A stretch of 64,000 nucleotides of DNA, taken from Cytophagaceae bacterium (GTDB taxonomy: Bacteria > Bacteroidota > Bacteroidia > Cytophagales > Spirosomataceae). The notes beneath the pieces are model-generated. The model did not search any database, had not been told where the DNA came from, and saw only the letters and a program-made list of their open reading frames with translations. Positions 55,956-64,000 of this stretch are shown in pieces. Position numbers and translations under genes: made by a program. Where the stretch lies: positions 62,001 to 126,000 of the forward strand of contig JAIXOL010000024.1 in the NCBI GenBank assembly GCA_027486845.1, given 5' to 3'. Every line of letters begins with the position of its first letter. The first letter of the stretch is position 1.

Positions 55956-58172
55956 ATGGAACATATAGAAAATAATTTTATCGAAAAAGCCACATCTGGG
56001 GATTTAGGGGCTACCTCACGTCGCTCATTTATTAAAACTGGCTCACTTACGGGAGTCGGTTTGATGGTTGGGCTTAATTCTTTCGCTAAAGAAAAACATC
56101 CTAAAAAGATTTCTCATACCGACCCAAAATCGGCAGTTCTCGACCTAGAAATCAATCCTTTTATCATCATCAGCACCGATGGAAGCATTGCTTTGATTAA
56201 TCCTCGCCCCGATATGGGACAAGGCTCTACGCAAGCCGCACCTTCGTTGATTGCCGAAGAATTGGAAGTCAGTTTGGATAAAGTAAAACTCATCCAATCG
56301 GGTGGGCAAGAAAAATATGGTAGCCAACAATCGGGTGGAAGTAGCACTGTTCGTGGCTTGTGGACTTCGCTCCGCAAGGCTGGTGCAGCGGCCAAAGAAA
56401 TGCTTATCGAAACTGCCGCCAAACGCTGGAATGCCTCAATATCAGACTGTTACGCCCAAGAAGGCAAGATTTATTTGAAAAATTCTGATAAATCATTCTC
56501 TTTCGGCGAATTAGTTGATGATGCTTCAAAACTACAAGTTCCGAAAAATCCGAAACTCAAAGACCCGAAAGATTTCAAAATTTTGGGAAAATACAACAAA
56601 CGTCTTGATGTGCCTGAACGTGTTACAGGAAAAGCTGTTTACGGAATCGATATCGAAGTGCCAAACATGGTTTATGCATGTATGCAGCACTCGCCAACTA
56701 TTCACGGAAAAATCGTTTCTATTGATGATAGCGAAACGTTGAAAGTGAAAGGTGTTTTGCAGGTAATTAAAACCAAAAGACCAATGCCGCACCGTGGAGC
56801 AGATGCAGTTGCAGTAATTGCAACAAATTGGTGGGCAGCTCTCAAAGGTAGAAAAGCCTTGAAAGTTACATGGGATAACGGCGATTTAGCTAAAACCATG
56901 ACAACCGATAATTATTTTGCGGCAACTTACGAAGCTGCCAAAAAAGAAGGTATCAGATTCGAAGAAAAAGGCGATTTCAATGCGAAATTTGCTAATGCCA
57001 AGCAAAAACTGGAGTTTAATTACGAAACTCCATTTTTGGCTCATGCTCCAATCGAGCCAGAATGTGCGGTTGTGCATGTAAAAGATGATGGTACGGCCGA
57101 AGTTTGGGCACACGTACAAGGCCCAGATGGTGGCTTGGCCGATGTTTCGAGAGCATTGGGAATCAGCAAAGATAAAATCAAATTCAATGTTCCGTTGCTT
57201 GGTGGTTCGTTTGGTAGAAAAGCTTACCACGACTATTTGAACGAAACTTGTTTATTGGCAAAAGAATTGAAAAAGCCTGTAAAAATGATTTGGACGCGTG
57301 AAGATGATATTACGCAAGGGCCATATCGCCCAGGAATGCTGAGCCACATGCAGGGCTTTGTTGATAAAGGCAAAATCACTGGTTTTCATCACCACGCCAT
57401 TGGCGAATCAATTGTTGGTCAAGTATTTGGAGGTTTAGCTCCTGACGAATCTGACCCGTGGTTATCGGGTGAAATCAGCACTGAAAATAGCAAATATGAG
57501 TTTCCTGTTTCAAAAATTTCTTGGACAAACGTAAAAACTGAAATTCCTATCGTTTGGTGGCGTTCGGTTTATGCCTCAAATTTTGGTTGGGGACAAGAAT
57601 GTTTCATTGACGAATTAGCTCAGTTGGCAGGAAAAGACCCGCTACAAGCCCGTTTAGACTTAGTGAAAGATGCTCGCTACCGAAAAGTACTGGAAACAGT
57701 TTCCGAAAAAGCCAATTGGAAAGAAAAACTCGGAGCAGGACAAGGCAAAGGAATAGCCGTTTTTGCTTCGTTTGGTAGTATTTCAGCTTGTTGCATTACG
57801 GTTACAAAAGATGGAGCGGGTGTAAAAATCGACAAAGTTGTGTCGGTACTCGACTGCGGATATTATGTAAATCCTGACAACGTAAAAGCCCAAACTGAAG
57901 GAAATATTGTAATGGGTATTACAGCGGCAATCAAAGGTGGAATAACGTTTACAAATGGCGTTTGCGACCAAACCAATTTTCATCAGTACAACGTCATGCG
58001 ATTGAACGAGGCTCCAAAAATGGAAATTCATATTATTGACAGCGGCGAAAACCCTGGTGGAGTTGGCGAGCCTGGTTTACCGCCAATTGCCCCAGCACTC
58101 GGTAATGCGATTTTTGCAGCAACTGGCAAGAGAATCAGAAAATTACCTTTTGATATTGCTAATTTGGGGTAG
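55956..58172 (+). CDS. iorB: Molybdopterin-binding aldehyde/isoquinoline oxidoreductase large subunit
   Basis: Twin-arginine leader [107 protein letters not shown]. Confidence 0.95.
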   Translation: MEHIENNFIEKATSGDLGATSRRSFIKTGSLTGVGLMVGLNSFAKEKHPKKISHTDPKSAVLDLEINPFIIISTDGSIALINPRPDMGQGSTQAAPSLIAEELEVSLDKVKLIQSGGQEKYGSQQSGGSSTVRGLWTSLRKAGAAAKEMLIETAAKRWNASISDCYAQEGKIYLKNSDKSFSFGELVDDASKLQVPKNPKLKDPKDFKILGKYNKRLDVPERVTGKAVYGIDIEVPNMVYACMQHSPTIHGKIVSIDDSETLKVKGVLQVIKTKRPMPHRGADAVAVIATNWWAALKGRKALKVTWDNGDLAKTMTTDNYFAATYEAAKKEGIRFEEKGDFNAKFANAKQKLEFNYETPFLAHAPIEPECAVVHVKDDGTAEVWAHVQGPDGGLADVSRALGISKDKIKFNVPLLGGSFGRKAYHDYLNETCLLAKELKKPVKMIWTREDDITQGPYRPGMLSHMQGFVDKGKITGFHHHAIGESIVGQVFGGLAPDESDPWLSGEISTENSKYEFPVSKISWTNVKTEIPIVWWRSVYASNFGWGQECFIDELAQLAGKDPLQARLDLVKDARYRKVLETVSEKANWKEKLGAGQGKGIAVFASFGSISACCITVTKDGAGVKIDKVVSVLDCGYYVNPDNVKAQTEGNIVMGITAAIKGGITFTNGVCDQTNFHQYNVMRLNEAPKMEIHIIDSGENPGGVGEPGLPPIAPALGNAIFAATGKRIRKLPFDIANLG

Positions 58173-58195: not shown

Positions 58196-58417
58196 ATGAC
58201 TATAGATATAACACCCAAAAAAGGTATTAGTTACGTAACTAATAGTGCAGGAAAAAGAACTGCTTTGATGCTTGATCTCAAAAACAAAGTCATTCGTGAA
58301 TTAGCCGAGGATTTATTAGATAACTTAGCTATCATCGAACGTCAAAATGAAACAAGTCGTCCTTTTGAAGAGATTGATAGTGAAATTTTAGCTAAAATAG
58401 CTCGTAAAAATGGCTAA
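58196..58417 (+). CDS. Putative antitoxin of a RelE/ParE-type module
   Basis: 73-aa ORF overlapping the downstream toxin ORF by 8 nt. Confidence 0.65.
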   Translation: MTIDITPKKGISYVTNSAGKRTALMLDLKNKVIRELAEDLLDNLAIIERQNETSRPFEEIDSEILAKIARKNG

Positions 58418-58667
58418 ATATACAATTTCTATCAAGAAAAGTGCTGAAAAAGAATTAAAAAAACTATCAGCAGAGATGTATTTGAGAGTCAAAAAGGGTA
58501 TTTTAAATCTTGCCGAAAATCCTCGTCCAAATGGTTGTAAAAAGCTAAAAGGAAAAGAGTCGTATCGAATTCGTGAAGGAAATTTTAGAATCATTTATGA
58601 AATAGAAGACGATGTTTTAATTATTATGGTTGTTAAAATCGGGCATCGCAAAGAAGTGTATGATTAA
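58410..58667 (+). CDS. RelE/ParE-family toxin
   Basis: YTISIKKSAEKELKKLSAEMYLRVKKGILNLAENPRPNGCKKLKGKESYRIREGNFRIIYEIEDDVLIIMVVKIGHRKEVYD. Confidence 0.92.
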   Translation: MAKYTISIKKSAEKELKKLSAEMYLRVKKGILNLAENPRPNGCKKLKGKESYRIREGNFRIIYEIEDDVLIIMVVKIGHRKEVYD

Positions 58668-58703
58668 TTTTTGAGTAACGTTTTTTGTTACCAAAATCAA
58701 TGT

Positions 58704-58745
58704 TAAGCGTCTAAGAATTATAAACTCTTAGACGCTGTTTTTTTG
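58704..58745 (+). terminator. Repeated terminator hairpin, copy T1
   Basis: aagcgtctaagaattataaactcttagacgctgttttttt; preceded by the small dyad GTAAC...GTTAC (58675-58691). Confidence 0.85.
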
Positions 58746-59269: not shown

Positions 59270-60139
59270 ATGGAAGCATTGTACACAGACGACCAAATAT
59301 TTATTCCGATAATCTCGGATTATGGTTTTAAAGCCACTTTTGGCAATGAAGCCAATACGCTTTTCTTGCGTAAGGCTTTGCAAGCACTTATCAATTCAGA
59401 AGTACCTATAAAAGAGGTAAAATTTGACAAGAATACCTTTGAAGGTATCACACAAGATAGCAGAAGTGGGATTTTTGATTTAGCCTGTACTGACGAAAAT
59501 GATAACCATTTTATAGTAGAAATGCAGTATGGCGATGCACCGTATTTTGTTCAACGCATGAAATTTTATGCTTTGCATAAATTTAACGCAATGGTGAAAC
59601 GAGGCAAATTTGACTACGGAACGTTGACAAAAATATATTGTGTGGCTATTTTAGCGAACGACATTCTACCCTATCCACAGTTTCATTCAGTTGCGAACTT
59701 ACAAAATGAACAAGGCGAACTTATTGACAACCAAATGACGTTTATTACGGTAGAATTAGATAAATTTACCTTGCAAGAAGTTGATTGTCAAACAGATTTA
59801 CAAAAGCTGATTTATACAATGAAAACGATACATACAGTAACACAGACAACCCAGTTTCCAAAATTTTGGGACGAAGCTTGGCTCAAAGTAGCCATTGACG
59901 AACTGGACAGCCGTAAAATGACACCTGATGAAAAGGCGTCATTGGAAATTCTAATTGCGAGAAATGCTGAATCAGTAAAAGCTGAGAGTAGGAAAATTAA
60001 ACAAGCTATTGACATAAAAAACATTGAAACTGTTACAAATGCTTTAACTATGGGCTTGACAGTAGAACAGTGTGCAAAATTAGCAAATGTTTCCGAGGAC
60101 TTTGTTTTATTTGTTAAACGACAGCTTTCTACAAACTGA
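59270..60139 (+). CDS. Rpn-family recombination-promoting nuclease / PD-(D/E)XK transposase-like protein
   Basis: FIPIISDYGFKATFGNEANTLFLRKALQALIN; FDLACTDENDNHFIVEMQYGDAPYFVQRMKFYALHKFNA; C-terminal AKLANVSEDFV. Confidence 0.9.
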   Translation: MEALYTDDQIFIPIISDYGFKATFGNEANTLFLRKALQALINSEVPIKEVKFDKNTFEGITQDSRSGIFDLACTDENDNHFIVEMQYGDAPYFVQRMKFYALHKFNAMVKRGKFDYGTLTKIYCVAILANDILPYPQFHSVANLQNEQGELIDNQMTFITVELDKFTLQEVDCQTDLQKLIYTMKTIHTVTQTTQFPKFWDEAWLKVAIDELDSRKMTPDEKASLEILIARNAESVKAESRKIKQAIDIKNIETVTNALTMGLTVEQCAKLANVSEDFVLFVKRQLSTN

Positions 60140-60141
60140 GC

Positions 60142-60396
60142 ATTACGGCGGCAATCAAAGGTGGAATAATGTTTACAAATGGTGTTTGCGACCAAACTAA
60201 TTTTCATCAATACAACGTCATGCGATTGAATGAAGCTCCAAAAATGGAAATTCATATCATCGACAGCGGCGAAAACCCTGGTGGAGTTGGCGAGCCTGGT
60301 TTACCGCCAATTGCCCCAGCACTCGGTAATACGATTTTTGCAGCAACTGGCAAGAGAATCAGAAAATTACCTTTTGATATTGCTAATTTGGGGTAA
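60142..60396 (+). pseudogene. Duplicated 3' fragment of iorB
   Basis: 255 nt aligning without gaps to 57918-58172, with 10 differences counted by eye; encodes the same C-terminus ([42 protein letters not shown]). Confidence 0.95.
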
Positions 60397-60419
60397 TATT
60401 TTACAAATTATAAAAACCT

Positions 60420-60476
60420 GTTACTTCTTGTAACACTAAGCGTCTAAGAATTAAAAACTCTTAGACGCTTTTATTT
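60420..60476 (+). terminator. Repeated terminator hairpin, copy T2
   Basis: GTTAC-ttctt-GTAAC then aagcgtctaagaattaaaaactcttagacgcttttatttt. Confidence 0.8.
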
Positions 60477-60653
60477 TGCCCAATCAAAAAGAGAATTTTG
60501 ATGTTGCTGTTTAACTTACCTATTACTTGGCTTTTTGCTCAACAAAATTCAGAAGTAATTATATGAGTTATAGACGCTACTAAGATAAAGGATTCGTATA
60601 TTACTAAGTATGCACTAAAAAATGAAAAACGATTTCAAATTAAAGAATTTGAT

Positions 60654-60661
60654 TATATTTG
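60654..60661 (+). promoter_or_regulatory. Candidate Bacteroidota -7 box upstream of the RT leader
   Basis: TATATTTG matches TAnnTTTG; no convincing -33 element seen. Confidence 0.35.
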
Positions 60662-60664
60662 TAA

Positions 60665-60769
60665 CGAGTTTGAACTGTGAAACTGCGGTTCAGTATAATA
60701 TGAAAGGTAATTATTACACAGAAAGAGAAGTCGTACGGCTTCTCTTTTCCGTTTTAATCAATTTATAAA
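60665..60769 (+). ncRNA. Candidate structured leader / msr-msd-like RNA upstream of the RT
   Basis: Two hairpins: TGAACTG-8 nt-CGGTTCA (60671-60692) and AAAGAGAAG-tcgtacgg-CTTCTCTTT (60722-60747), ending directly before the GTG start; possible 7-bp a1/a2-like pairing TTGATTA (60649-60655) with TAATCAA (60755-60761). Confidence 0.35.
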
Positions 60770-62467
60770 GTGGGCGGAAAAAGACAACGTAGACAACAAG
60801 GTGAAAGAATAAAAAGGGCAAATCAAAAATTGACGAAAGAACAAATCGAGATTGCTTTAAATAGTTTTTATTCAATTAAAACCCCAAAAGAGTTATGCGA
60901 ATTACTTAACATTTCGTATGATAGATTATTATCGGTATTTTTCTCTAAATATAATTCTTTTAAAATACTCAAAAAAGGAAAAGAAAGAGAAATTCAAAAA
61001 CCTGATGTTTTACTTTTGGAAGTTCAAATTAGATTGTCTTATTTTCTGAATTGTGCATATATAAATACAATAAATAGTAGAGATATTCATAATTCCTATG
61101 CTTACATACCAGCATTAAAGGAAAATACTTCAAAAAATTCGGTTAAAAATATTGTTAGTAACGCAAATAATCACACAAATAAAAAACTCGTTGCTAATCT
61201 TGATTTAGTAAATTTTTTCAATTCTATTCATAAATCAAAAATAGTAGATTTATTTAAAAATGAACCATTTAATTTCAATAATGAGTTAATTGATTTTATT
61301 GCAGAGATTGTAACAAATGATAATAGTTTACCTGTTGGTGCAGCAACTTCGCCAATATTATCAAATTTTATAATGCTTGAAATTGATGAACAATTCCAAA
61401 AAATACCAAATATTATTTATTCGAGATTTTCCGATGATTTAACCTTTTCAACAGATTTTTATTCAATTTCTGAATTTGAAAATATACTATCTTTTGTTAT
61501 TAAAATTATCGATAATAGTGGATTTGAAATTAATTATTCAAAAAAGACGATTAAAAAATCTACTCAGAAACAGATTGTTACAGGTATTATTGTAAATAAA
61601 AAAGCAAATGTTGACAGAAAATATATTAGAAATATTCGTGCAATTTTACATTCAATAACTACGATTGGTTGGTTAGAAGCTGGTGAGAAATATGTTGAGC
61701 TTAATAAAAGTAAATTTTTAAGAGCAATAAGGAACTATTTCAAAACAGAGAATAATTGGATTTTATCTGATGAAATTATTGATACTCATGTTACGTATAG
61801 TAAGGAATGGTATTTTAATAAGTCATTGAGAGCAAAAATTGAACACATAGGTTATGTTAAAGGTAAAGACGATGATATTTATAGAAACTTATTGCAAACT
61901 TATTTAAACCTAATTGAATCTAACGGGATAATGATAAGAGTTTCACCCAAATTATCTTTAATTAATGATATTGTATTTGTTACGAATGCAACTGCAAATT
62001 CAATTGTTTTTTATGCTTATTCATTTTTAAAGAATTGTGGATTAAACGATTTTGAAATAAGTGATTTAAGAAGTAAATTTTATTTCAATGGGTCTAATAA
62101 AATATCTTATGAAGAGATTTTGAGAAATTTTCAAAATCAAAGTGCTTATTTTATGAATTTATTTACATTTATGACCAATTACGATAGATTTGAAAGTTTT
62201 GTGACAGAAATTGAAAATCAAAATAGATTTCATAAAATATTCAAAAATTATGGTAACTCACTTGAATTAATAAGACAGTATAATAGAAGAATATATCATG
62301 CTAATATTGAATGTGAGTATTTAAGGAATGATTTTAACGAAGGTGACAAATATTTCAAAAATACAGGAGTTTTTTTTGAGGAAAACAAAGAAATGAAACA
62401 AAAATATTATGTCTTAAAACGTTCGTTTTTAGATGTATTAAAAATGAGAAAATGTGAAAAATGCTAA
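60770..62467 (+). CDS. Retron-like reverse transcriptase with C-terminal extension (565 aa, GTG start)
   Basis: NANNH in SNANNHTNKKLVANLDLVNFFNSI; LPVGAATSPILSNFIM; catalytic YSRFSDDLTFS; VTGIIVNKKANVDRKYIRNIRAILH; thumb-like SLRAKIEHIGYVKGKDDDIYRNLLQTYLNL; then about 170 aa of unrecognised sequence. Confidence 0.88.
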   Translation: MGGKRQRRQQGERIKRANQKLTKEQIEIALNSFYSIKTPKELCELLNISYDRLLSVFFSKYNSFKILKKGKEREIQKPDVLLLEVQIRLSYFLNCAYINTINSRDIHNSYAYIPALKENTSKNSVKNIVSNANNHTNKKLVANLDLVNFFNSIHKSKIVDLFKNEPFNFNNELIDFIAEIVTNDNSLPVGAATSPILSNFIMLEIDEQFQKIPNIIYSRFSDDLTFSTDFYSISEFENILSFVIKIIDNSGFEINYSKKTIKKSTQKQIVTGIIVNKKANVDRKYIRNIRAILHSITTIGWLEAGEKYVELNKSKFLRAIRNYFKTENNWILSDEIIDTHVTYSKEWYFNKSLRAKIEHIGYVKGKDDDIYRNLLQTYLNLIESNGIMIRVSPKLSLINDIVFVTNATANSIVFYAYSFLKNCGLNDFEISDLRSKFYFNGSNKISYEEILRNFQNQSAYFMNLFTFMTNYDRFESFVTEIENQNRFHKIFKNYGNSLELIRQYNRRIYHANIECEYLRNDFNEGDKYFKNTGVFFEENKEMKQKYYVLKRSFLDVLKMRKCEKC

Positions 62468-62671
62468 AAAAGTACATAATGTTCAATAATTACGGGCTTT
62501 TTTGTTAGGTTGAAACAGTTTAAAAAATGGTCTCACAAATTGAAACGGTAGTGCCTTGAAATCCCGCAAAATATGCATTTTGTTTTTCGTTATATGCCAT
62601 TCTGAAACCTCAATTAATTAGATTTAACTTGACGACATCTGAACAATATTTCGTAAATTATAGAAATATCC

Positions 62672-62729
62672 GTTACTTCTTGTAACACTAAGCGTCTAAG
62701 AATTAAAAACTCTTAGACGCTGTTTTTTT
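62672..62729 (+). terminator. Repeated terminator hairpin, copy T3
   Basis: GTTAC-ttctt-GTAAC then aagcgtctaagaattaaaaactcttagacgctgttttttt. Confidence 0.85.
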
Positions 62730-63342: not shown

Positions 63343-64000
63343 TTACTCGAATCTCTCAAACCATTCTTCATCGACTGATACTTTTTCAACAATTTCTAAT
63401 TTTACTCCTAAATTTAACTCTTTTAATTTTTCAGCTAATTTATTCCCATCAATTAAATCAATTGTTGGTGCACCATCTCTTGTAGCTTCTGCCAAGGCGT
63501 TGTGTGTAAAATTTCCAGTCGTAATAAATAACCCTTTATCAGTTCTACCAGCCATTGCACCTCTAAAATCTCTAATTTCTTTAGAAGAAACTTTACCCAC
63601 ATATCTTTTACATTGAATAATGATATGAAAACTTAAAATCCCATTAATTTTTGCAATTCCTCGCAAATCAATTCCCCCATCATTACTACGCCCAGTAACT
63701 TCAACTTGTTCAAAGCCTTTTTCACGTAGAAATCTTTGAATTAATCTTTCAAATCCACTTGGGGTTACTTTATTTAAAATTACTGATATGATTTTTTCTT
63801 TCCAGTTTTCTTCGTCCTCTAATTGTTGATTAATTCTATCAATAAGAGTTTTATCACCTCCCTTTCTAAGTAAAAATTGCACATCATCCATATTGATGAT
63901 AGACCAAACTCCTCTTTGAGAATTTTCTATCGAACCTTGATTTTTCAACATAGTCCGAACCCAAGCTAACTGATAAGACAATTCAGTTTGTAATGTATCT
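63343..64000 (-). CDS. mrr: Mrr-like restriction endonuclease, 5' end outside window
   Basis: GFERLIQRFLREKGFEQVEVTGRSNDGGIDLRGIAKINGILSFHIIIQCKRYVGKVSSKEIRDFRGAMAGRTDKGLFITTGNFTHNA PD-(D/E)XK core; frame open to 64000. Confidence 0.92.
   Translation of the reverse strand, partial: DTLQTELSYQLAWVRTMLKNQGSIENSQRGVWSIINMDDVQFLLRKGGDKTLIDRINQQLEDEENWKEKIISVILNKVTPSGFERLIQRFLREKGFEQVEVTGRSNDGGIDLRGIAKINGILSFHIIIQCKRYVGKVSSKEIRDFRGAMAGRTDKGLFITTGNFTHNALAEATRDGAPTIDLIDGNKLAEKLKELNLGVKLEIVEKVSVDEEWFERFE

Follow-up and report, generated by a model that had tools for sequence, protein, structure and literature searches.

A probable retron in a Cytophagaceae bacterium combines a compact, diverged RNA with a new domain fused to its reverse transcriptase

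INTRODUCTION

Retrons are anti-phage systems in which an msr hairpin of the noncoding RNA (ncRNA) is used for starting DNA copying, and a retron RNA is recognized by complementary a1 and a2 ends of about 8 to 30 nt. The reverse transcriptases (RTs) of retrons are characterized by a NAXXH motif, a VTG motif, and an xxDD core, and in the retron Ec86 the core bound by the RT consists of a small loop on a stem of 8 bp (PMC6868368). For Eco2, a single msr stem-loop suffices (PMC12405507).

Here, we describe a locus in a 64-kb stretch of DNA from a Cytophagaceae bacterium (the window) that is probably a retron, with an RNA that is compact and diverged and an RT to which a new domain is fused. In the reading that we favor and consider probable, the leader of the RT gene is a compact retron ncRNA, made up of a1, a GAGT motif, msr, msd, and a2, that serves an RT with a fused domain (Table 1).

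RESULTS AND DISCUSSION

Table 1. Positions of the retron features in the window and of related genes on other contigs
Feature	Position	Strand	Remarks
Cassette-borne leader with probable retron ncRNA	60606..60769	+	Congener similarity ends at 60605 and resumes at 62586
a1 candidate TTGATTA (weak)	60649..60655	+	7 bp with 60755-60761
TATATTTG, Bacteroidota -7 box-like	60654..60661	+	Motif match, exact TAnnTTTG
GAGT, candidate priming-guanosine motif	60666..60669	+	Relatives have TATGAGT/C there, about 10 nt after a1
msr stem-loop (hairpin 1), TTGAACTG[TGAAACTG]CGGTTCAG	60670..60693	+	Top R2 match, stem covariation
Predicted msd template region	60694..60754	+	Placed from the msr and a2 positions
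Probable msd hairpin (hairpin 2), 12 bp, 4-nt loop	60721..60748	+	Position analogous to relatives' msd stems
a2 candidate TAATCAA	60755..60761	+	8 nt before GTG; relatives' a2 likewise close to the RT start
Retron-type RT of 565 aa, extended at the C terminus, start codon GTG	60770..62467	+	RVT_1, E = 2.4e-17
NAXXH, retron region X (NANNH, residues 131-135)	61160..61174	+	
Catalytic FSDD (residues 220-223)	61427..61438	+	YADD variant
VTG, retron region Y (residues 270-272)	61577..61585	+	
C-terminal domain (about residues 401-565)	61970..62464	+	Common to a stand-alone gene in L033-L035
Two-gene pair, genes of about 194-210 aa and 251-254 aa	L033:4159-5507, L034:4114-5507, L035:287-1626		
DnaB_C helicase-like genes	L003:75-1172, L008:2747-3829, L014:1645-2499, L117:467-1348		

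The RT groups with retron RTs

The xxDD core, NAXXH, and VTG are all present in the window RT, and in PADLOC its RT part is matched best by the RTs of type XI, I-C, and XII retrons. The best fold match is the retron Eco2, with structures of non-retron defense RTs (DRTs) scoring lower. In a tree of 132 RTs, the window RT falls among the Bacteroidota RTs L002 to L017 with moderate support (SH-aLRT 93) and has a long terminal branch (1.26). We found no RT relative closer than about 44%, and single-protein scans of genome and viral contigs returned no close relative. These results bear on a reading of the leader as the template RNA of a DRT-like enzyme, copied without a 2'-OH branch. The weak a1/a2 complementarity described below and a possible transcript start at the msr hairpin would suit such an RNA, but NAXXH and VTG, the placement in the retron clade, and the ranking of the fold matches argue against it, and we regard it as highly improbable.

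The RNAs of the relatives provide the reference for the leader. Fifteen RT relatives, all in the tree group of the window RT, have a canonical a1-msr-msd-a2 ncRNA of 138 to 169 nt on the 5' side of the RT, which it directly precedes in nearly all cases (in the exception, L014, it lies about 400 nt upstream). RNAalifold on these relatives recovers helices for both a1/a2 and the msr, and 12 of the 18 pairs show compensatory changes; the a1/a2 boundaries were chosen by hand, which favors the a1/a2 helix. With respect to gene content, many Bacteroidota retrons have a DnaB_C helicase-like gene directly 5' of the ncRNA and RT, for which PADLOC holds no model beyond a weak mad8 match, and these DnaB_C-linked retrons are possibly an unlisted retron type. 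In another retron-type RT, of 532 aa, the fusion partner is a restriction-nuclease domain, Mrr_cat (L146:790-2385, minus strand).

Hairpin 1 corresponds to the msr stem-loop of retron relatives

The 130 nt before the GTG (60640-60769) fold at -29.6 kcal/mol (z = -3.13), with 1 of 200 shuffles equally good, and both of the successive hairpins given in the preliminary description are present. Hairpin 1, with 8 bp and an 8-nt loop, lies 77 nt 5' of the RT start and has an ensemble pair probability of 0.99. R2, a covariance model trained on the msr hairpins of 24 retrons other than that of the window, places 60670-60693 first among the 128,000 strand positions of the window (14.9 bits; E = 0.2 over the whole window and 0.0016 over the 501-nt leader). 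Across the 25 sequences, the msr stem is 88.7% paired, and its covariation is higher than in any of 500 shuffles (0.525 versus 0.217) and also exceeds that of every slid version. The stem-loop common to the relatives has a G-C closing pair and a UGnnnC(U)G loop, a form that hairpin 1 fits, with A-U pairs in place of their mostly G-C pairs; on the two strands of the 64 kb, only this one loop of the family is carried by a stem of 5 bp or more.

By its homology, hairpin 1 is the retron msr stem-loop, by which the RT would recognize its RNA, and this homology, together with the covariation, provides the chief grounds for regarding the leader as a retron RNA. The preliminary description had proposed a candidate msr/msd upstream of the RT and had named a lack of conservation in homologues as evidence to the contrary; hairpin 1 is kept and covaries in them. 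The proposal is thus supported by an msr stem-loop common to retron relatives, and further by the retron signatures of the RT and its grouping with RTs that have unmistakable upstream retron RNAs.

Hairpin 2 (ensemble pair probability 1.00) is the probable msd stem. It is followed by a T-rich tail and scored as terminator-like (1 found versus 0.3 expected), as would be expected if the leader were that of an ordinary mRNA, with hairpin 2 an attenuator or terminator, hairpin 1 incidental, and the RNA of the RT encoded elsewhere or nonexistent. The TATATTTG box, which suits a start near 60668, also agrees with such a leader. Nevertheless, the best retron msr match of the window is hairpin 1, all close RT relatives have an ncRNA upstream of the RT, and we found no second copy of the leader in the genome, all of which argues against an ordinary mRNA leader and leaves it very improbable.

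The a1/a2 pair is weak and the leader has diverged

In the eight relatives tested, at most 2 of 200 shuffles have an a1/a2 helix as strong by energy as the real one. The 7-nt TTGATTA/TAATCAA pair that had been proposed for the leader is indeed present, but its duplex energy is no better than that of shuffles (521/1000), in keeping with the accompanying caveat that an AT-rich match of 7 bp could be due to chance. The probability of this pair in the ensemble is 0.17. With respect to geometry, a 7-bp helix at the spacing of the relatives arises in 91 of 4,000 mononucleotide and 196 of 4,000 dinucleotide shuffles (P of about 0.02 to 0.05, for a geometry picked post hoc). The end of the a1 candidate lies 10 nt from GAGT, as in relatives, and this GAGT aligns with their GAGT/GAGC, which makes it a candidate site of the priming base. 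A search for a better a1/a2 with a2 inside the RT gene gave one helix of 10 bp and one of 11 bp, both with G-U pairs and far away, which we dismissed as chance.

Both the first msr hairpin of the relatives and the conserved GATAATT 5' of their a2 are missing from the leader. A full-length model of 15 relatives (R1) leaves the leader undetected at 4.7 bits, with its best window matches being noise elsewhere. Rfam matched neither the leader nor the RT relatives with clear retron RNAs, so that its miss is uninformative for the leader. These losses could indicate a decayed retron, in which a1 and the first msr hairpin are gone and the leader is a remnant that no longer gives rise to msDNA. The a1/a2 energy at chance level, against strong a1/a2 in all eight relatives tested, the failure of R1, and the long terminal branch of the RT are in line with decay, which we nonetheless consider unlikely: all 565 codons of the RT form an unbroken frame in which the catalytic and retron motifs are retained, compensatory A-U changes preserve the msr stem, and a1 and a2 candidates stand at the spacing seen in relatives.

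The TAnnTTTG-like box pointed out 5' of hairpin 1 in the preliminary description proves to be an exact match, and it shares two bases with the 3' end of the a1 candidate. Since TAnnTTTG is common in the window (134 sites versus 96.5 expected), the TATATTTG box alone says little, and yet it may be real, because TATATTTGTAA lies just 5' of a1 in the same-order retrons L119 and L123. As had been cautioned, a start from this box near 60668 would leave a1 out of the transcript, so that, if the box is real, a1 would be dispensable or another promoter would be used. A minimal retron could be imagined on these terms, with a transcript that starts at the msr stem-loop, no functional a1/a2 clamp, and an RT fused to a new effector that derives from a separate two-gene defense pair; we judge it quite unlikely. 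A sigma-70-like promoter reading reached only chance level.

The C-terminal domain recurs outside retrons

Residues 401-565 of the window RT, when searched separately from the RT part, had no match in Pfam, PADLOC, PHROGs, or the PDB. Neither Pfam nor PADLOC found a trypsin-like protease or a TIR domain, as in types XI and XII, in this region, and AlphaFold gave low confidence for the domain both by itself and within the full protein. The PADLOC I-C match of the RT extends to residue 544, but a degenerate Toprim was rejected (hhalign probability 0.0; separate scans without a match). The domain is also found in the second gene of a conserved, unannotated two-gene pair on three genome contigs, where the last 165 aa are 43 to 48% identical to the window RT residues; the first gene of the pair weakly resembles DUF6621. 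Few genomes besides these carry the domain. In the window retron, the domain probably serves as the effector, as judged by analogy with the RT-Toprim, RT-protease, and RT-TIR fusions of other retrons.

Genomic context

A ParE toxin gene preceded by that of a 73-aa probable antitoxin (58196-58667), a PDDEXK_2-family transposase-like gene within the hotspot described below (59270-60139), and a gene for an Mrr-like restriction endonuclease (Mrr_cat) next to the cassette (63343-63999, minus strand) surround the retron. The acquired cassette itself (about 60606-62585) lies behind a duplicated dehydrogenase 3' end (57913-58171 and 60137-60395, 95%) and is flanked by copies of one terminator-like repeat (58676-58744, 60409-60477, and 62661-62729). 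Congeners have other cargo at the insertion point of the cassette, with a different gene there in L165. Judged from these sequences, the slot is a cargo-swapping, defense-type hotspot.

Proposed mechanism and implications

In the favored reading of the leader as a compact retron ncRNA, a short a1 would be followed by GAGT with the priming guanosine, then by a single msr stem-loop and a short msd hairpin, and finally by a2 just before the RT start. The RT would bind the msr stem-loop, which homology supports as the binding element, and would prime from the 2'-OH of the guanosine, in analogy with Eco2 (PMC12405507) and with the retrons reviewed in PMC6868368. The msd would then be copied into a short hairpin DNA, and the fused domain would presumably be kept inactive by the complex of RT and msDNA, with release once a phage disturbs this complex, in the manner of the single-gene retron Eco2 (RT-Toprim). 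The homologous msr stem-loop, the retron signatures of the RT, the clear ncRNAs of its relatives, and the fusion are observed; from them we infer that a1 and a2 pair, which base primes, that msDNA is produced, and that the C-terminal domain acts as an effector.

If functional, the locus would add to the single-gene retrons one whose fused domain is of an unrecognized kind and whose ncRNA measures about 113 nt, and would suggest that other putative defense operons are a source of effectors captured by retron RTs. The leader would also allow a direct test of minimal a1/a2 pairing, which is of practical interest for retron-based DNA production.

Comparison with known systems

The two-gene pair of L033 to L035 differs from the window locus in that it contains no RT. 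Types XI (RT-protease) and XII (RT-TIR) are, like the window retron, single-gene fusions and give the best PADLOC scores over the RT, whereas the window protein is without a protease or TIR domain. Eco2/Ec67 (type I-C, RT-Toprim) likewise fuses an RT to a C-terminal domain of similar length in a single gene, and Eco2 also has just one msr stem-loop, which is of the kind seen in the window (loops like that of Eco2 are found in L061 to L065); however, the RTs are only about 25 to 29% identical, the C-terminal domain of the window RT is unrelated to Toprim by profile comparison, and the a1/a2 of the window is much weaker. The DnaB-linked retrons (L002 to L015, L116, and L117) differ by a DnaB_C gene upstream (in those examined), by RTs of about 340 to 400 aa without an extra domain, and by longer ncRNAs (138 to 169 nt) in which a1/a2 is strong and there are mostly two msr hairpins, but they form the nearest RT group and share with the window retron an upstream ncRNA and a homologous msr stem-loop.
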